Source of the DNA: Chroococcidiopsis thermalis PCC 7203
Lineage (GTDB): Bacteria; Cyanobacteriota; Cyanobacteriia; Cyanobacteriales; Chroococcidiopsidaceae
Direction of reading: 5' to 3'
DNA: 64,000 bases
Assembly: GCF_000317125.1 (NCBI RefSeq)
Contig: NC_019695.1
Span: 3,212,336 to 3,276,335 of the forward strand
Of the stretch, positions 16,880 through 43,667 are shown in pieces. The translations under genes were made by a program, and so were the position numbers. Every line of letters starts with the position of its first letter. Within the stretch, counting starts at the first letter, position 1. The notes under the pieces were generated by a model. That model was given only the letters and a program-made list of their open reading frames with translations, had not been told where the DNA came from and ran no database searches.

Positions 16880-19348
16880 CTATTTAGGCAACAAAGCCGC
16901 TCGATCCATCAATTTCAGTTGTTCTTGTCGATCCTCTACTCCTTGTTGGTATTCCAAAAGTGTAAATGTATCTACTTGAATTGCTTCATTACGAGCAATT
17001 TCTGCCGCACGAATTAGCTCAGCCTCTTCTAGAGTAATTATCTCAGCCTCACGTGCTGCTGTAACTAGCTGCTCCGGTTTTCCTGACGGCAGCTGACCTT
17101 CACGACTGGCAGCTTTGATAGTTTTGAATACTGGTTCGGCTTGGGATGACAGGAGAAAAGCATTTTCCAAGCGTCCCAAGGCTTCATTTGGATCTACAGG
17201 AACATAAATACCTGCGGTGAGGCGATCGCGTTGCTGTCCTGGTGTTTGAAGGTTACGAGCAATTTCACTGCCAAGTCGGTCAGATGGTAAAGAACCGATC
17301 GCATTGAGCCGCCACCACCAAATCACAGGTTTTCGGAATAAACTACCGAGAATTGGTATGGGTAGGTTACTGAAAATTCCCTCAAATCCAAGCTGAATTT
17401 GAGCTAAGGCATATTCTACTGCCCAGCGGATAAAGGGTAAATCTTCCTTGCAACCTTCTGCCTCAAATCGGCGCAGAGTAGCTGTTGCCAAATACATCCA
17501 AGAAAGAATATCAGCAAATCGTCCAGTTAGTTTTTCTCGCCGCTTTAACGTGCCACCAAAACAGAAGAGAACTAAATCGGTCAGCCAAGCAAAAGTCGCG
17601 GCTGCCCATTCGAGTTTGCGGTAGTATTTAGCAGTAGCTCCAGTTACAGGCGGACGGGCGAGATAGCCACGAGACAGACTCAGCAGTAAGGCACGGCAAC
17701 CATTACGCATCATGAAACCAACGTGATGCCAAAAGGCGCGATCGAAAGCCGAGACATCCGACTGTTTGAGGGCAATAACTTCTGCAAATACGTAGGGATG
17801 ACAGCGGATCGCTCCTTGACCGAAGATCATCATCGTGCGAGTGAGGATATTCGCGCCTTCAACCGTAATCGAGATCGGAGTAGCAATGTAGATATTTGCG
17901 AGTAGGTTTCTGGGACCGCGACAGATACCAGAACCACCGAGAATATCCATCCCGTCATTGATAATTTGACGCGAGAGTTCCGTCAGGTTGTACTTAGCGA
18001 TCGCCGAAATGACAGCAGGTTGCTCGCCGCGATCGACTGCGCCACAAGTATAAGCCCGAGCGGCATCCATCAAATATGTCAGTCCCCCAATCCGAGCTAG
18101 GGGTTCCTCAATTCCTTCAAACCGACCGATTGGCAAACCAAACTGCTGTCGCACTGTTGCGTGAGCGCCCGTCACTCGCGCTACGAGTTTGGCAACTCCG
18201 GTACAGGTAGCAGGAAAGCTGATGCCCCGACCCGCAGCCAGGCTCTGCATCAACATTTTCCAACCCTGACCCACCTGTTCTACACCACCGATAACTTGGT
18301 CGATGGAGATGATGACATCATGCCCTTCAACCGGAGAATTGTAAAACGGAACTCCCATCGGATCGTGTCGCCGTCCTAAAACCACACCAGGCGTATCCGC
18401 CGGAATTAAAGCGCAAGTAATGCCTACATCCTCTCCTTTTCCCAGCAAATTTTCTGGATCGCGAAGGCGAAACGCCAGACCGATTAAAGTGGCGATCGCG
18501 CCCAGGGTAATGTAGCGTTTGCGGAAATTCAAGCGCAGATATAGTTTTCCATCTTCAGCTGGAAACACGACCCCTTCAGAAGTAATGCTACCCGCATCTG
18601 AGCCAGCCTGGGGTTCGGTCAGGGCAAAACAGGGAATTTCATCTCCCTTGGCTAGTCGGGGCAGATAATAGTCTTTCTGAGCTGGAGTACCATATCGCAG
18701 CAATAGCTTAGCGGGTCCGAGGGAGTTCGTCACTCCCACTGTCGCCGTGTGGGTGAACGATCGCGATGCCAACTTCATCATCACGGCGCTGTAGGCAAAG
18801 TTAGAAAAGCCCAAACCGCCATACTCTTTGGGAATCATCATGCCGAAGAAGCCTTCGTGTCTGAGATATGCCCAGACTTCCGGTGGTAAGTCTTTGCGAC
18901 GGTAAATTTCCCAATCGCTGACCATGCGGCAAACTTGTTCTACTGGTCCGTCAAGAAATGCTTGGAGTTCTGGCGTGACTTGAGGATAGGGTTCGCTGTT
19001 AATTCTGCGAAAATTGGGTTGACCGGAAAAGAACTCACCATCTACCCAAACAGTTCCTGCCTCGATCGCTGCTTGTTCAGTTGCAGAGATGTTTGGTAAG
19101 AGATTGAAAGCTTTAATGGCGGAAACGATCAAAGATGTGACAAGCGATCGCCGTAATATGGGTAAATTTAAGATTGCTGCCACCACACCAAACAGCGACC
19201 ACACCCAAATTGGCGGATTCCACGCTGATAGTACCAGGACAAAATACAGCGACCACAGCCACAAAGGAACGCCAATGTAACCCAGTGCTAAAAATAGGAA
19301 AATTAGCGCGGGAATGACAAAGACTGGATCGAGCAGGTTCATCATCAT
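16880..19348 (-). CDS. fadE: Acyl-CoA dehydrogenase, long FadE type
   Basis: FAD-dependent first oxidation of beta-oxidation, acyl-CoA to trans-2-enoyl-CoA. 822 residues, the length of Escherichia coli FadE rather than of ~380-residue acyl-CoA dehydrogenases. Residues 1-75 hold membrane segments. The dehydrogenase core follows: EVWAYLRHEGFFGMMIPKEYGGLGFS, CFALTEPQAGSDAGS (FAD/substrate loop), LGRRHDPMGVPFYNSP, GRGISFPATCTGVAK and DILGGSGICRGPRN. A C-terminal DUF1974-like helical region ends the protein. Last gene of the minus-strand fad operon, 66 bp after fadA. Three consecutive ATGs at the start leave 1-2 residues uncertain. Confidence 0.95.
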   Translation of the reverse strand: MMMNLLDPVFVIPALIFLFLALGYIGVPLWLWSLYFVLVLSAWNPPIWVWSLFGVVAAILNLPILRRSLVTSLIVSAIKAFNLLPNISATEQAAIEAGTVWVDGEFFSGQPNFRRINSEPYPQVTPELQAFLDGPVEQVCRMVSDWEIYRRKDLPPEVWAYLRHEGFFGMMIPKEYGGLGFSNFAYSAVMMKLASRSFTHTATVGVTNSLGPAKLLLRYGTPAQKDYYLPRLAKGDEIPCFALTEPQAGSDAGSITSEGVVFPAEDGKLYLRLNFRKRYITLGAIATLIGLAFRLRDPENLLGKGEDVGITCALIPADTPGVVLGRRHDPMGVPFYNSPVEGHDVIISIDQVIGGVEQVGQGWKMLMQSLAAGRGISFPATCTGVAKLVARVTGAHATVRQQFGLPIGRFEGIEEPLARIGGLTYLMDAARAYTCGAVDRGEQPAVISAIAKYNLTELSRQIINDGMDILGGSGICRGPRNLLANIYIATPISITVEGANILTRTMMIFGQGAIRCHPYVFAEVIALKQSDVSAFDRAFWHHVGFMMRNGCRALLLSLSRGYLARPPVTGATAKYYRKLEWAAATFAWLTDLVLFCFGGTLKRREKLTGRFADILSWMYLATATLRRFEAEGCKEDLPFIRWAVEYALAQIQLGFEGIFSNLPIPILGSLFRKPVIWWWRLNAIGSLPSDRLGSEIARNLQTPGQQRDRLTAGIYVPVDPNEALGRLENAFLLSSQAEPVFKTIKAASREGQLPSGKPEQLVTAAREAEIITLEEAELIRAAEIARNEAIQVDTFTLLEYQQGVEDRQEQLKLMDRAALLPK

Positions 19349-19414
19349 AATTCGTAATTCGTAATTCGTAATTAAAAGTGGGTTGAAGAATCTGACCTCT
19401 CAGGTCGTCCAGAT

Positions 19415-20599
19415 TTAGGAGGTTGCCAAATTCTCAAACACTGCCGCTGCTCCCATCCCACCACCAACGCACATCGTCACCAGACCGTAACGAATGTTAC
19501 GCCGTTTCATTTCGTGCAGCAGGGTGGCTGTCAGCTTCGCACCCGTGCAACCTAGAGGATGACCGAGGGCGATCGCGCCGCCGTTGACATTGACAATCTC
19601 CTCATTCAAACCGAGCTTGCTAATTACTGCTAAGCTTTGCGCGGCAAAGGCTTCATTCAACTCGATTAACCCGATATCTTCCAAGCTTAAACCCACTTGC
19701 TTCAGCACCTTTGGTACAGCCTCAACTGGTCCAATCCCCATAATTTCTGGGGGAACTCCGGCGACTGCAAACCCTAACATCCGTCCTAGAGGTTTTACAC
19801 CGAGTTTGTTGACCCAGCGCTGACTCATTAACACCGTCGCTGCTGCTCCATCCGAAGTTTGGGATGAGTTCCCAGCTGTAACCGCTCCACCTTGGCGAAA
19901 AACAGGTTGCAACCGCGCCAATGCTTCCAGACTGGTATCGGCGCGAGGACCTTCATCAAGCTGAAAAACTTGCTCCACAACCTGCGGCTTGCCATCAATA
20001 TAGAGAGTTTCGCGCACCGGAAGCGGGATAATTTCTTCAGCAAAACGACCTTGCCTAATTGCAACTAAAGCTTTCTGATGCGATCGCAGCGCAAAAACAT
20101 CTTGTTCCTGGCGAGAAACTCCGTACTGCTGGGCTACGTTCTCAGCCGTAATCCCCATCGTACAGTAGGCTTGTGGAGTCTCCGCCAACACTTCTGGATT
20201 GGGAGCTAGATAGTGTCCCCCCATCGGAATCAAACTCATCGATTCGGCTCCACCCGCCACCATAATTTCTGCTTGTCCCGTGGCGATCGCTTGAGCTGCC
20301 ATCGCGATCGTCTGGAGTCCAGAAGCACAAAAACGGTTGACGGTACAACCTGCCACTGAATCGGGCAAACCCGCCCGCTGAGCAATAACTCGTCCCAAAT
20401 TAAATCCCTGTTCCGCTTCTGGAAACGCACAGCCGATAATGATATCGTCAATATATTCTGGTGCAAGTCCTTCGACGCGAGCGATCGCGCCTTTGACTGC
20501 CACCGCGCCCATGTCATCTGGGCGAACGTGGCGTAACGTACCGCGTGGCGCTTTTCCCACCGCAGTCCGAACGCTGCTAACAATATAGGCTTCTTTCAT
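19415..20599 (-). CDS. fadA: Acetyl-CoA C-acyltransferase (3-ketoacyl-CoA thiolase)
   Basis: Cleaves 3-ketoacyl-CoA to acetyl-CoA plus a shortened acyl-CoA, the last step of each beta-oxidation turn. 394 residues from ATG 20599 ([17 protein letters not shown]). The frame runs on upstream to 20809, but those 70 residues are translated repeats (RGTRGT, NYQLP) and are probably not made. Catalytic Cys91 lies in [10 protein letters not shown], the histidine in [13 protein letters not shown] and the second cysteine in [10 protein letters not shown]. Length and motifs are typical of degradative thiolases. It lies between fadB and fadE, in the order fadN-fadA-fadE known from Bacillus subtilis. Confidence 0.96.
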
Positions 20600-20805
20600 A
20601 GTTGGTAGTTGGTAGTTGGTAGTTGGTAATGGGTAATAGGTAATGGGTAGTTGATAAGAAAGTGGTGCGTGAAGAAGGGGTGTAGGGTGTGGGGTGTAGG
20701 GTGTAGGGTGTGAATGCGTGAATTTTGAATTCTCCCTTGTCCCCCTTATCTCCCTTGTCCCCCTTATCTCCCTTGTCCCCCTTGTCCCCCTTGTCCCCCT
20801 TGTCC
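20600..20805. repeat. Repeat cluster between fadB and fadA
   Basis: TTGGTAG/TTGGTAA heptamers (20603-20640), GGGTGTA-type heptamers (20680-20712) and a CCCCTTGTC-type 9-mer run (20733-20805) fill the whole fadB-fadA gap. One frame stays open through all of it and is continuous with fadA. Confidence 0.85.
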
Positions 20806-23067
20806 TCAATTTCGTAGCGGCTTTTTATGCTTCAACGTGTGAGCAATCCGCTCTTGGGTTTTGGGCTGGCTGAGTAGGGGTAAAAATGCTTCCCGTTCTA
20901 ATTGCAGTAAGTAGTTTTCATCAACTAAAGCAGGTGCGGAAAGTTCCCCGCCAGCCATGACGTAGGCTAAACGGTTGGCTAAATAGCGATCGTATTCGCT
21001 GATGAAGCCGCCTCGGTAAAGAGTATCGGCAGCATAATCCAACATTGCTCTCCCCGGACGACCTAGCACCATAATGGCGTTGCGTTCGGGGGGTGAGGCG
21101 TAACCTGCGCGATCGCTACATAAGACTTCTTCTTTGGCAACTTCTAAACGGCGATCGCCATTCATTAAAATTCTGGCTGTCGGTGGTAGAAATCCTAGTT
21201 CTTGGGCTTCCGCAGCACTATTGGAGACTTTCGCCATGCCAATTGTTTCAAACACTCGCCGCAGGAATGGTTGGATGTGATGGGGTGCTTCTGTGGCAGC
21301 GCGATCGGCTGCCCAAGTCACCGATCGCATAATGCCACCAGCCCCAGGAATTAAACCTACACTCAGTTCCACCAAGCCAATATAAGTTTCTGCTGCTGCC
21401 ACGACTTGCGGACACGCCATGACTAACTCGCAGCCACCACCCAACACGCGCCCCTGAATTGCTGCAACAATTGGTTTGGGGAAGTAATGAATTCGTTGTA
21501 GCAGAGTTTGAAATTTGACAATCAGATCGGCGATCGCCCCTAATCCCGACTGCGCCATCATTGCCATTTCCGCCAGATTTGCCCCACCTGAGAAATGAGC
21601 GCTGCTGTTGCCAATGACCAATCCTCGATAATCGTTCTCTAGCAGATCCAACACCTCAGTCAAACCGTCAACCACTTGCAAACTCAAAGTATTACCCTTC
21701 GAGCGAAACTCATACAAAACCACCCCATCGCCCATGTCTAGCAATGCTGCTTCGGGATTTTGCCATATTAGCGGGAGTCGGGAGTCGAAAATCAAATTTT
21801 CACTTTTGACTTTTGACTTTTGACTTTTGACTTCTGCCCATTCCGGCACGGTCATTCCCGCAGCTTTCATATCTGCCAGCACGGTTTCAAATCCCAATAC
21901 ATCCCAAATTTCAAAAGGACCGAGTTCCCAGCCAAAGCCCCATCGCATTGCTTTGTCAATGTCGGTAGGACTGTCGGCAATTTCGGGAATGCGGCAGGCA
22001 GCATAACTTAATGTTTTAAGGATAGACTCGCGGAAGAAAGCACCCGCACGACTGCGATCGCGATACAATGCCCGCAGGCGATCGCCTAAATCGGGAATCT
22101 TACCAATTGCCTCAATATCACCCAAATTTAGAGGTTTAGCTGGTTCGTAAGCGAGTGTTTCTGGATTTAATGACAGAATTTGTCGGTCTTGCTTTTTGTA
22201 AAAGCCTTGACCCGTTTTCGCTCCTAGCGTCCCCGTCTCTACGAGTTTGCGTAATAGTTCCGGCACGCGGAAGACTTCTCTGCTTTCATCATGGGGAATA
22301 GCTGGATAGAGATTGCTGGCGACATACATCAACGTATCTAGTCCGACTAAATCCGCCGTGCGGAATGTGGCTGATTTTGGTCTACCTGCAATTGTTCCCG
22401 TTAGAGTATCGATTTCCTCAATCGTGTATCCCTGCGTTAACGCCTGCAAACCGAGCATTGTGACATACATCCCAATTCGGTTAGCAATAAAGTTAGGAGT
22501 ATCCTTTGCGACTACGACCCCTTTACCTAAATGTAGCTCTCCGAACCACTTCATTCTTTCTAGTACTTGCGGATCGGTATCAGCTGTCGGAATGATTTCG
22601 AGTAATTTGAGATAGCGGGGCGGATTGAAAAAATGAGTTCCCAAAAACCTTTGACGAAAGGATTCAGAACGTCCTTGGGCGATCGCGTCGATTGGTAAAC
22701 CGCTCGTATTGGTGGATACGATTGTATCCGAGCGAATTACGCTCTCTAGGCGTTCCATCAGCTTTTGCTTAATATCTAGATTTTCTACCACTGCTTCAAT
22801 GACCCAATCGACAGCGGCAACTGAGTCAAAATGCTCGTCAAAATTTCCCACAATGACGCGACGGGCTGTCTTTTCTGTAAAAAATATAGGTGGAGATAGC
22901 TTCAGGGCTTTTTTAAATGATGTTTCAACTAATTCGTTTTTATTGCTCCCCTTGCCAGCGAGATCTAATAAATGTACGGTTAAACCTGCATTGGCGAGGT
23001 GAGCGGCAATCTGGCTTCCCATCACTCCCGCACCAAGAACGGCGGCGGTTCGGAACGGCTTAAACAT
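20806..23067 (-). CDS. fadB: 3-hydroxyacyl-CoA dehydrogenase / enoyl-CoA hydratase
   Basis: A bifunctional beta-oxidation enzyme of 753 residues that hydrates trans-2-enoyl-CoA and oxidises the 3-hydroxyacyl-CoA with NAD. The dehydrogenase half comes first: [21 protein letters not shown] (NAD site, residues 8-28), [37 protein letters not shown]. The hydratase/crotonase half follows from about residue 430: [35 protein letters not shown] and [13 protein letters not shown] with its glutamate. This order is that of Bacillus FadN, opposite to E. coli FadB. A heptamer-encoded linker ([11 protein letters not shown], residues 410-423) joins the halves. 69 bp downstream of fadD. Confidence 0.95.
21797..21836. 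repeat. AAAAGTC heptamer array inside fadB
   Basis: About five heptamers, with a short GGGAGTC pair at 21775-21787 beside them, lie in frame at the junction of the two catalytic domains of FadB and encode a Lys/Ser-rich linker. Confidence 0.9.
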
Positions 23068-23136
23068 AATTTTAAAACCTCAGTTATCAGTTATCAGTGG
23101 TAATTGGTAATGAAGTGATGCGTAGTGTGCGATCGA

Positions 23137-25329
<2,193 letters not shown>

Positions 25330-25909: not shown

Positions 25910-26767
25910 TTATGCTGCTTGACTGTCATCAATTTCCTGCAAATGCTGCTCCAACCAGTTACCAATGTCTACAAGTACTTCTTGATAATTCGTATCGGCA
26001 TAAAGATCGTGATAACTGCCAGGATACTCGTAGCATTTCTTGTCGGGATAAGTGACCCGTTCGCAGAACAGCCAACTACTTTCAGGATGAGTCACTTGGT
26101 CTGCACTGCCATGTAGCAGCAGTAAAGGAATTTGCAGCTCAGAGGCATGATTTTCAATCCAATCCACGGCAGCAAAGAATTCTGTTGCAAGTCTGGCACT
26201 ACCGTATTCGTGACGTAAGGGGTCTTGACTATAAGCAGAAATAACATTCGGATTGCGCGAACTAGCATGATGATTCAAGCCAACCTTAAGACTCAAGCGT
26301 GGATAGACGCGGGAAAAGACTCGCCCGATCGCTAGTTTGAGGCGCGAAACTCCAACTTTCCCCAAGGCTGGTGCAGTGACGATCGCACCCCGCAATCCCT
26401 GCGGCGATCGCAAAGCATAATCCAAAACAATCGCACCTCCTAAACTATGTCCCCAGACAAAACAAGGGCAATTCGGTTCTTGCTGCCAAATTTGCTGCAA
26501 AAAGGCGCTTAAATCTTCTCGAAATTCAGTCCATCTATTAATATGTCCCCTTTGTCCTGGCGAGTGTCCGTGACCTCGTAAATCAAAGGCATAGACTGCA
26601 TAACCTAGAGACACTAAGTACTCTACAGCAGGTAGAAACAGACCGCTATGCGCTCCCAAACCATGTACGATCGCGACCACAGCCCGCGATCGCTCTTGGG
26701 GATGCCAGCTTTGGTAATAAAGGCTTAATCCACCAGCGCCCTTGAAGGTTCCTGCAATGTTTTTCAT
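25910..26767 (-). CDS. Alpha/beta hydrolase, monoacylglycerol-lipase-like
   Basis: 285 residues from ATG 26767, which has GGGGAG and AGG upstream; an earlier TTG at 26782 would overlap the ribosome site. Serine hydrolase motifs are AIVHGLGAHSGLF (oxyanion region), FDLRGHGHSPGQRGH, the nucleophile elbow VWGHSLGG, the acid in LLLLHGSADQVTHPE and the histidine in YPGSYHDLYAD. The pattern RGHGxSxGxRGH is that of monoacylglycerol lipases and lysophospholipases (Hydrolase_4). No signal peptide, so probably cytosolic. Same strand and 580 bp upstream of fadD; it could release fatty acids for the fad operon, which is inference. Confidence 0.88.
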   Translation of the reverse strand: MKNIAGTFKGAGGLSLYYQSWHPQERSRAVVAIVHGLGAHSGLFLPAVEYLVSLGYAVYAFDLRGHGHSPGQRGHINRWTEFREDLSAFLQQIWQQEPNCPCFVWGHSLGGAIVLDYALRSPQGLRGAIVTAPALGKVGVSRLKLAIGRVFSRVYPRLSLKVGLNHHASSRNPNVISAYSQDPLRHEYGSARLATEFFAAVDWIENHASELQIPLLLLHGSADQVTHPESSWLFCERVTYPDKKCYEYPGSYHDLYADTNYQEVLVDIGNWLEQHLQEIDDSQAA

Positions 26768-41772: not shown

Positions 41773-42130
41773 TGGTCATTTGTCGTTGGTCATTGGTTAA
41801 GTGCGGATACGACATGTCATATCTCTACAGTTAACCGTCTACTAATAACAAAACTAGCATTGATTGCTAGGAATACCGTACTATGTTTGTATTTCTTACA
41901 GATGGCTGAGATCCAGCAGTTTTAAATCAATTGTCAAATTACTGTTCATCTGACTGTGACGCGCTAACAGCACTTGAACGAATGACAACCTTCACGAGTA
42001 GTTCACAACTCAAATAGAAGTTTCACATACAATACTTAACAATCTGACTGAGTTTACTTCACAGTTTGTAACTTTTATTGACAGAACGTAGGGAGCGTGG
42101 TTTAGGATGTAGTTAACCAGATTAAATAAG
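41773..42130. other. Divergent intergenic region
   Basis: 358 bp between the methanethiol-oxidase-like gene and the riboswitch. Short CATTGGT-type heptamers lie next to the former (41765-41795); the rest is AT-rich and must hold the promoters of both units. No gene seen. Confidence 0.5.
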
Positions 42131-42255
42131 TCAGCCTAATCCAATCATAATTGGAGCGGAGGAACCGAATTTTGGGGCTTATCTCTGAGATAAACAGAGA
42201 GGGACATCTCTCAGTCCTAGCCCGTCAGCTAACTTCGTAGGCGTTGAGAGGAGAC
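42131..42255 (+). ncRNA. Cyclic di-AMP riboswitch (ydaO/yuaA class)
   Basis: The 5' leader of the glycosyltransferase gene contains the conserved ydaO elements in order: GCCTAATCC (42134-42142), GGAGCGGAGGAACCGAA, TTTTGGGGCTTATC, a variable stem (CTCTGAG...), then CCCGTCAGCTAAC, TTCGTAGGCGTTGAGAGGAG. These line up with the crystallised Thermoanaerobacter aptamer (GGAGGAACCG, TTTTTGGGG, GACAGCTAACTCCGGAGGC). The class senses c-di-AMP, commonly turning off osmolyte or potassium-transport genes. About 147 nt separate it from the start codon, room for an expression platform. Confidence 0.88.
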
Positions 42256-42401
42256 TGTAAAGATCGAAGATTTCTAGATCCCATTCAGTGTCCTTGGCTG
42301 GTTTAAACCCGCTACGTTTTACCTGTACTTGGTGCTAAGGAATTGATTCCTGATGGCAGCCAGAGGCAGGAAAGCTAGCCATAAGGAGAAGTAAACCAAC
42401 A

Positions 42402-43667
42402 ATGTTAGAAAAACAGAATCGCATTGCTTTAATTTCTGTTGATGGCGATCCAGCGATTGAGATTGGGCAAGAAGAGGCTGGAGGTCAAAACGTTTACGTG
42501 CGCCAAGTCGGTCTTGCCCTTGCCCAGCAGGGATGGAAAGTCGATATGTTTACTCGCCGTAGCAGTAAAGAACAAGCGGCGATCGTGCAACACAATGCTA
42601 ATTGTCGCACGATTCGGTTACCAGCGGGAGCGCCAGAATTTATCGGACGGGACGAACTATTCAGTTATTTACCGGAGTACGTCAAAGCTTTCCAAGCTTT
42701 TCAACAACAACATGGATTTCGTTACTCGCTCGTCCACACTAACTACTGGCTATCTGCTTGGGTGGGAATGCGATTGAAGCAACTGCAACCTTTGAGTCAG
42801 ATACATACATATCACTCGTTGGGTGCAGTTAAGTACAGAAATATTGACGAGATTCCAGCGATCGCAACTAAACGGTTAGCAGTAGAAAAAGCTTGTTTGG
42901 AAACAGCGGAACGGATAGTAGCCACCAGTCCTCAAGAACAAGAACACATGCGATCGCTTGTTTCAACCACAGGACAAATTGATATTATCCCCTGCGGTAC
43001 GGATATAGACAGATTTGGGGCAATCGAACGCGAAGCAGCGCGGCAGCAGTTAGGAATTGCAGCAAATGAAAAAGTCGTGTTGTATGTCGGTCGATTTGAC
43101 AAACGTAAAGGGATTGAAACCTTAGTGCGATCGGTGGCAAGATTGCACGCAGCAGGTCGGACTAACTTGAAATTAATTATCGGTGGTGGCAGCCAACCCG
43201 GTCGCTGTGACGGCAGAGAACGCGATCGCATTGAAGGAATTGTTGGAGAGTTAGGTTTAGATACGATAACTGTTTTTCCAGGTCGCTTGGACGATCGAAT
43301 TTTGCCAGTCTACTACGCAGCTGCCAATGTTAGTGTCGTCCCCAGTCACTACGAACCTTTTGGTTTGGTAGCAATTGAAGCGATGGCAAGCCGAATTCCC
43401 GTGGTTGCTAGCGATGTCGGCGGTTTGCAATTTACCGTAGTTCCAGAAGAGACGGGATTACTCGCACCTGCTAAAGATGACGTTGCGTTTGCCCAAGCGA
43501 TCGATCGCATCTTAGCCGATTCTAGCTGGGCAAGAAAGTTAGGGGAACGAGGTCGGCAACGGGTAGAAAATCATTTTAGCTGGCAAGGTGTAGCAATCGA
43601 ATTAGGACATTTGTATACCACATTGAATTCAGCCACGGTTGAGACGAGTAGAGCGATCGCAGCTTAG
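42402..43667 (+). CDS. GT4-family glycosyltransferase, sucrose-phosphate-synthase/sucrose-synthase-like
   Basis: 421 residues with AAGGAG upstream of ATG 42402. Two Rossmann domains of a GT-B retaining glycosyltransferase: IALISVDGDPAIEIGQEEAGGQNVYVRQVGLALAQQGW (the GGQNVYV donor loop shared with sucrose enzymes and MshA), YSLVHTNYWLSAWVG, DIIPCGTDIDRF, VVLYVGRFDKRKGIETL and the E-x7-E motif in VPSHYEPFGLVAIEAMASRIPVVAS. It probably makes sucrose phosphate or another glucoside. Control by a c-di-AMP riboswitch fits a compatible-solute role under osmotic or drying stress. The exact acceptor is not proven. Confidence 0.85.
   Translation: MLEKQNRIALISVDGDPAIEIGQEEAGGQNVYVRQVGLALAQQGWKVDMFTRRSSKEQAAIVQHNANCRTIRLPAGAPEFIGRDELFSYLPEYVKAFQAFQQQHGFRYSLVHTNYWLSAWVGMRLKQLQPLSQIHTYHSLGAVKYRNIDEIPAIATKRLAVEKACLETAERIVATSPQEQEHMRSLVSTTGQIDIIPCGTDIDRFGAIEREAARQQLGIAANEKVVLYVGRFDKRKGIETLVRSVARLHAAGRTNLKLIIGGGSQPGRCDGRERDRIEGIVGELGLDTITVFPGRLDDRILPVYYAAANVSVVPSHYEPFGLVAIEAMASRIPVVASDVGGLQFTVVPEETGLLAPAKDDVAFAQAIDRILADSSWARKLGERGRQRVENHFSWQGVAIELGHLYTTLNSATVETSRAIAA

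Follow-up and report, generated by a model that had tools for sequence, protein, structure and literature searches.

The window analyzed here, a stretch of 64,000 nucleotides from the cyanobacterium Chroococcidiopsis thermalis PCC 7203 (contig NC_019695.1), contains a cluster of genes for fatty acid beta-oxidation. On the minus strand these occur in the order fadD-like, fadB, fadA, and long fadE, with all four open reading frames (ORFs) co-directional (Table 1). The first-pass annotation had described four co-directional beta-oxidation genes, and both the minus-strand ORFs and the family domain matches bear this out. Its pairing of a fadB-fadA-fadE order with a long FadE likewise agrees with the domain matches and coordinates. 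The start of fadA lies at 20599 (MKEAY...); the ORF from 20809 is a read-through of 206 bases of tandem repeats. Seven-base tandem repeats also lie inside coding sequence, at 21797-21833 (the FadB linker between halves) and at 23139-23171 (the FadD end). Elsewhere in the window, a c-di-AMP riboswitch (RF00379, 84.7 bits) is found at 42123-42258, just 5' of a glycosyltransferase-like gene at 42402.

Table 1. Features of the beta-oxidation locus, in window coordinates.
Feature	Coordinates	Strand	Remarks
fadD-like AMP-binding gene	23137..25329	-	730 aa; PF00501 and PF23562 matches
fadB/fadN-type gene	20806..23067	-	753 aa; PF02737, PF00725 and PF00378 matches
Short tandem repeats, fadB-fadA gap	20600..20805	-	7-, 9- and 18-base units
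fadA, acetyl-CoA C-acyltransferase	19415..20599	-	394 aa; TIGR01930 467.5 bits, above cut-off
Long fadE acyl-CoA dehydrogenase	16880..19348	-	822 aa; NF007000 1044 bits, above cut-off
Monoacylglycerol-lipase-like alpha/beta hydrolase	25910..26767	-	PF12146 7.9e-72

FadB comprises 3HCDH_N, 3HCDH, and ECH_1 domains with the dehydrogenase half first, and matches the model NF052272 (Staph_FadB) over its full length with 658 bits, below the cut-off of 999. Its active-site positions are filled (Ser122, His145, Glu157, and Asn196; Glu547 and Glu567) by residues that are invariant in the FadB alignment. FadA contains the Thiolase_N and Thiolase_C domains and the Cys-His-Cys set (Cys91, His347, and Cys377). 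FadE combines acyl-CoA dehydrogenase domains with ACDH_C (PF09317, 1.2e-99), and its Glu497, invariant in the FadE alignment, aligns with the ACAD9 site. We take these residues of FadE, FadA, and FadB to be the active sites. The structure model of FadE (pLDDT 86.8) shows three helices (residues 8-61), a core resembling VLCAD, and a C-terminal region of helical structure, with mouse ACADVL as best fold match (8ca1, 1.9e-21).

The operon resembles the Bacillus fadNAE and Staphylococcus FadB-type operons, where a dehydrogenase-first bifunctional enzyme, a thiolase, and an acyl-CoA dehydrogenase follow in the same order. In contrast to Bacillus fadNAE, the cyanobacterial FadE is of the long type (1044 bits with NF007000 versus 98.4 bits, under a cut-off of 600, with the Bacillus-type model NF058590), a fadD-like gene leads the operon, and no electron-transferring flavoprotein (ETF) was found.

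Distribution among cyanobacteria

The view that model cyanobacteria lack beta-oxidation, repeated in the first-pass annotation, agrees with passages of three papers that state its absence from cyanobacteria (PMC7133116; PMC7379126; PMC6123915). A passage on Synechococcus elongatus mentions recycling via beta-oxidation (PMC3750487). In Chlorogloeopsis fritschii PCC 9212, UYEDRAFT_05553-05556 are described as beta-oxidation genes that rise approximately 10-fold after 48 h in far-red light and 15- to 70-fold in rfpBC mutants, which the authors relate to loss of membranes and use of membrane fatty acids (PMC6424891). These four consecutively numbered genes resemble the window operon, the likeness being one of description only. 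The presence of the operon is therefore not new, being known for one strain. Unlike the present analysis, the relevant passages of that account do not treat ligase motifs, the lipase, or ETF. Neither the conserved module nor the degenerate ligase, lipase link, or absence of ETF was found in a search of open-access papers, among which most subscription journals are not represented.

The operon is not unique to the host and is patchy among cyanobacteria. Of 386 genomes in the phylum, PF09317 was detected in 10, including 6 from the window's class; a FadB search (E<=1e-50) matched 8 of the 386, and within the class the same 6. In the window's order FadE occurs in 27 of 330 genomes. Two peptide patterns scanned against named genomes, with the best 80 matches of a capped list considered, added at least 10 further cyanobacterial loci (L034-L042 and L044). 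After five loci were dropped as duplicates, their contigs being equal in length to those of others, the set numbered 35 distinct cyanobacterial loci; class and phylum names for some relatives are our reading of kinship terms. The first-pass annotation had proposed a survey of cyanobacterial genomes for the same gene order, and the order fadD-fadB-fadA-fadE, in one direction, is kept in 29 of the 35. Among the other six, five reach contig ends and one (G511) has its genes apart with fadB elsewhere; FadB is present in all six of these genomes. The operon is a scattered yet conserved cyanobacterial module. One genome from another class of the phylum (G047, locus L032) has adjacent FadB (44%) and FadA (59%) with no long FadE, and a short acyl-CoA dehydrogenase-like match follows them.

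The FadD-like protein and its possible partners

By family and descent the window FadD belongs with the FadD-type ligases of the ANL superfamily (PF00501, 1e-63, 215.9 bits). Its P-loop at 208-217 reads IPGATGKPQG where TSGTTGxPKG is expected, Leu544 replaces the motif A8 Arg, and Glu661 replaces the motif A10 Lys. These three elements presumably serve ATP binding and adenylation, and with all of them replaced the operon encodes no ATP-dependent ligase recognizable by motif. The statement that catalytic motifs are intact in all four proteins thus holds for FadE, FadA, and FadB and fails for FadD. Likewise, the beta-oxidation gene set is present as claimed, but since FadD is without ATP-handling residues, the operon does not establish every step to acetyl-CoA.

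The same losses recur when 29 cyanobacterial FadD proteins are aligned with 4 from the outgroup. Scored as [ST][ST]G[STE][ST]GxP[KR]G, which we take to be the canonical motif of the superfamily, the P-loop is found in 0/29 cyanobacterial copies versus 4/4 outgroup copies, and at least one acidic residue stands among its first seven places in 22/29. The A8 Arg is kept in 0/28 (L213 stops before the motif) versus 4/4, and the A10 Lys in 9/29 versus 4/4, with 3 of the 20 lacking copies being gaps. Seven of the nine copies that keep the Lys belong to family f11 (Xenococcaceae, judged by two named members); the loop in these nine is mostly milder, e.g., IAGETGQPKG, and some may therefore still be ligases. 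Two copies (L199 and L200) carry 34 and 33 additional residues within the P-loop. Other parts of the protein are retained, including the motif A5 Glu (26/29), the motif A7 Asp (28/28), and a well-conserved stretch, FKLSTGKYV, with its first Lys and Gly present in 28/28. The window FadD has the tail CPAYAQSL at 707, and a CPxxAQSL-like tail ends 15/29 cyanobacterial copies. Six pairwise comparisons give FadD a dN/dS of 0.08-0.22, with synonymous sites near saturation in three of them, indicating that the protein is maintained by selection and is still used. As judged from its sequence, FadD is a protein that has lost its ATP-handling residues yet stays under purifying selection.

One explanation is that FadD has become a pseudoenzyme, either a scaffold or an acyl/CoA sensor, and that a normal ligase performs the activation in trans. 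This is possible, if rather unlikely, and partly overlaps the lipid-recycling explanation given below. A normal long-chain acyl-CoA ligase is indeed encoded elsewhere in the host (L217; NF004837, 503.9 bits, above cut-off), and the dN/dS of FadD is the highest of the compared genes in 4/6 pairs. The conservation of the FKLSTGKYV stretch argues against a pseudoenzyme, as does the distribution of L217 relatives (E<=1e-90), which were tested as a normal ligase tracking the operon. They occur in 6/32 carrier entries, which represent 31 distinct genomes, and in 7/25 non-carriers; no tracking is seen, and L217 is therefore not the usual partner of the operon.

It is more doubtful that the operon is an ordinary complete one, in which FadD would be an ATP-dependent ligase with unusual motifs and FadE would use an unrecognized ETF-like carrier. 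The FadD fold with its motifs A5 and A7, the first place of FadD in the gene order, its low dN/dS, and the nine copies with the A10 Lys are all in keeping with such a ligase. They are opposed by the uniform absence of the canonical P-loop, the frequent acidic residues within it, and the missing A8 Arg and, in 20/29 copies, A10 Lys. The host itself offers a further contrast: 25 of its 30 AMP-binding loci (some sharing one long frame) have the canonical loop, and the operon FadD is among the five without it.

A related protein with a normal loop is the cyanobacterial acyl-ACP synthetase Aas, a name given here on the basis of motif and distribution. Aas and FadD are both AMP-binding and are both matched by PF23562. 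Unlike the operon FadD, Aas has a normal or near-normal P-loop in 11/12 loci inspected and carries GR in motif A8 in all 5 loci where the motif was displayed. In the FadD tree it forms its own clade of six rows, apart from the operon FadD.

The lipase-like gene, which the first-pass annotation does not mention, lies 580 bases upstream of fadD and encodes a Ser-Asp-His triad (Ser108, Asp223, and His253). The best PDB match of its product is a monoacylglycerol lipase (6qe2, 5e-46); by family and triad it is monoacylglycerol-lipase-like, with the substrate putative. A lipase-like gene is same-strand adjacent or fused in 17/35 loci (8 upstream, 2 as fusions with FadD, and 7 just downstream of fadE), with gaps of <=530 bases between open frames where the genes adjoin. 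In L044 the lipase-like gene is 2.7 kb distant from the operon. The two fusions, L027:14145-17207 and L037:3354-6320, are single frames encoding lipase-like and FadD-like parts and are the strongest sign that both proteins work together. The structure model of the L037 fusion, in which the lipase half has a pLDDT mostly <50, is too poor to place the halves. There is no adjoining lipase-like gene in 18/35 loci, part of which are short of flank, and none was found in the flanks of four outgroup loci (L046, L055, L071, and L104). In Adonisia turfae (L041:1074-3548) a frame of 825 aa has its lipase-like domain at the C-terminal end, while the N-terminal portion of the frame resembles a second hydrolase, as judged by eye.

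A further candidate function is suggested by the combination of a dropped ATP site with retained acyl- and CoA-side motifs. FadD could be an ATP-free acyl-CoA-forming transferase whose acyl donor is either the acyl-enzyme of a neighboring or fused lipase or the acyl-ACP that Aas produces. We regard this as speculative and would not expect it to hold. If degenerate FadD does still make acyl-CoA, its chemistry would be unlike that familiar from its family.

Proposed electron exit and physiological role

Acyl-CoA dehydrogenases of this long type are encoded in carriers for which no ETF could be detected. The PF01012 profile matched 0/35 carriers (0/16 and 0/19 in two sets) and PF00766 matched 0/16, with each profile matching 10/14 control genomes. 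Many of the carriers are drafts: 2 of the 19 are <90% complete and completeness is given for 6 of the 16, while four carriers, including the host, are assembled in <=3 contigs. The same searches gave no ETF in one Halopseudomonas genome where it would be expected, a warning that absence calls can fail. Across the phylum PF01012 occurs in 181/386 genomes, and within the window's class it was detected in just two, G177 and G332, both non-carriers. ETF is present in 3/4 of the outgroup genomes with a comparable operon, G397 being without it; life without ETF is therefore not general to the FadE line. Three non-cyanobacterial genomes with long FadE (G407, G408, and G397) gave no ETF by two models (PF01012 and PF00766).

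The failure to detect ETF in any of the 35 carriers makes it probable that membrane-anchored cyanobacterial FadE works without this partner. The maximum of N-terminal hydropathy, over 19 residues, is >=2.16 in 33/35 cyanobacterial FadE proteins, the other two (L206 and L216) being cut. Given these hydrophobic N-terminal helices and the lack of a detected ETF, we favor direct reduction of plastoquinone as the electron exit, with oxygen as its rival. A parallel is provided by E. coli FadE, likewise long, which shares the ACDH_C domain and, in the passages available, is described as having no identified ETF partner and as possibly reducing quinone directly (PMC11495604). According to passages of a second account, no ETF is known to be needed for growth of E. 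coli on fatty acids, three sets of ETF homologs are named in that organism, and the additional C-terminal domain of FadE might substitute for ETF, an unproven idea (PMC9329746). The cyanobacterial fadE gene, unlike that of E. coli, shares an operon with fadB and fadA. With no ETF detected in any of them, the 35 carriers offer a natural test of whether the long FadE family can function without this protein.

The reading that we favor, at a probability of roughly 0.6, is that the genes form a catabolic lipid-recycling operon with non-ATP-driven entry and a quinone-linked FadE. Fatty acids released from membrane lipids would enter the pathway, and their CoA thioesters would be formed by a route other than the usual ATP-dependent chemistry of an operon-encoded FadD. 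The acyl-CoA might come from a different ligase, in some carriers, or from acyl transfer with acyl-ACP or the lipase as donor. FadE, FadB, and FadA would then shorten the acyl-CoA to acetyl-CoA, while FadE, held to the membrane by its N-terminal helices, would give electrons directly to plastoquinone with some leaking to oxygen. Its likely use is to burn or recycle fatty acids of the membranes under conditions that limit photosynthesis, and not to support growth on external fat. Should both an ATP-free FadD and an ETF-free FadE prove correct, cyanobacterial beta-oxidation would have a non-textbook entry and exit.

Operation in the reverse or a biosynthetic direction, as in chain elongation or the trimming of special lipids, is improbable. 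A photoautotroph without detected isocitrate lyase would not be expected to grow on acetyl-CoA, which is in accord with biosynthesis; isocitrate lyase gave 0 matches in the host genome, which speaks against a glyoxylate shunt there, and among 16 cyanobacterial carriers two strong matches occur only in G334, with weak ones in G391 and G395. Pointing the other way are the lipase-like neighbor, a gene set typical of catabolic operons, and the induction in far-red light in Chlorogloeopsis, which coincides with signs of membrane loss in the passages describing it (PMC6424891). The lipid-recycling reading gains its interest from the finding that many lineages have a module that is conserved and under selection, although papers still deny beta-oxidation to cyanobacteria. 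With such a module, the burning of fat may play a part in membrane turnover, in acclimation to far-red light, and in survival in the dark.

Origin of the operon

Trees were built with a quick method, with SH-aLRT as the only support for FadE. Among the 63 rows of the FadE tree, the 35 cyanobacterial ones belong to a single clade (100*). Its sister group comprises Rhodothermota/Balneolota, Planctomycetota, and Bdellovibrionota, together with a single row of Lentisphaerales and two that bear the label Pseudomonadota (L049 and L067). The 29 cyanobacterial rows likewise form one clade in the FadB tree (100*) and in the FadD tree (99*), the program warning in both of long branches meeting. Of the protein trees proposed at the outset, those of FadE, FadB, and FadD thus each yield a single cyanobacterial clade, from rows that include no Bacillus sequence. 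In length, as the first-pass annotation noted, and in its ACDH_C domain FadE is like the proteobacterial enzyme, but by descent it is not close to the four proteobacterial FadE rows, which sit apart from the cyanobacterial proteins (E. coli is absent from the tree). It is with these four that FadE of the deep lineage f30 groups, outside the cyanobacterial clade. A Bacillus or proteobacterial origin is unsupported by the scan (two peptide patterns, best 80 matches of a capped list) and by the trees, which are without a Bacillus row and place the rows L049 and L067 in the sister group.

The closest counterparts of the operon are in Rhodothermota/Bacteroidota-type MAGs (L046, L055, L071, and L104), which have the four genes in the same order and direction. 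Their FadD proteins are the nearest outgroup and, unlike the cyanobacterial copies, combine a P-loop of normal sequence with the A8 Arg and the A10 Lys. The plain reading of these sequences is a single old shared origin, or one whole-operon transfer, followed by mainly descent and many losses; an ancient gain of the operon is likely. The FadE clade mostly follows cyanobacterial families. A Leptolyngbya row falls together with those of f9, which makes it likely that the operon has at times moved between cyanobacteria.

That the operon was recently acquired from a heterotroph, or represents contamination, is very improbable: the patchy spread (PF09317 in few genomes of the phylum) and the GC of the five genes (0.47-0.53, slightly above the 0.43-0.47 of eight other window genes) would suit it, but the window sits on a 6.3-Mb contig, FadE is at 94% identity in both same-genus genomes that matched, GC3 of the five genes (0.41-0.48) overlaps that of other window genes (0.35-0.46), and the single cyanobacterial clade largely tracks families. 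Recent gain was rejected on the strength of conservation at the genus level and the single clade; the composition matches that of the neighbors only approximately. In one carrier (G481) FadD is truncated (L213:5597-7018) and the FadE match holds one internal TAA; the operon may be decaying there.
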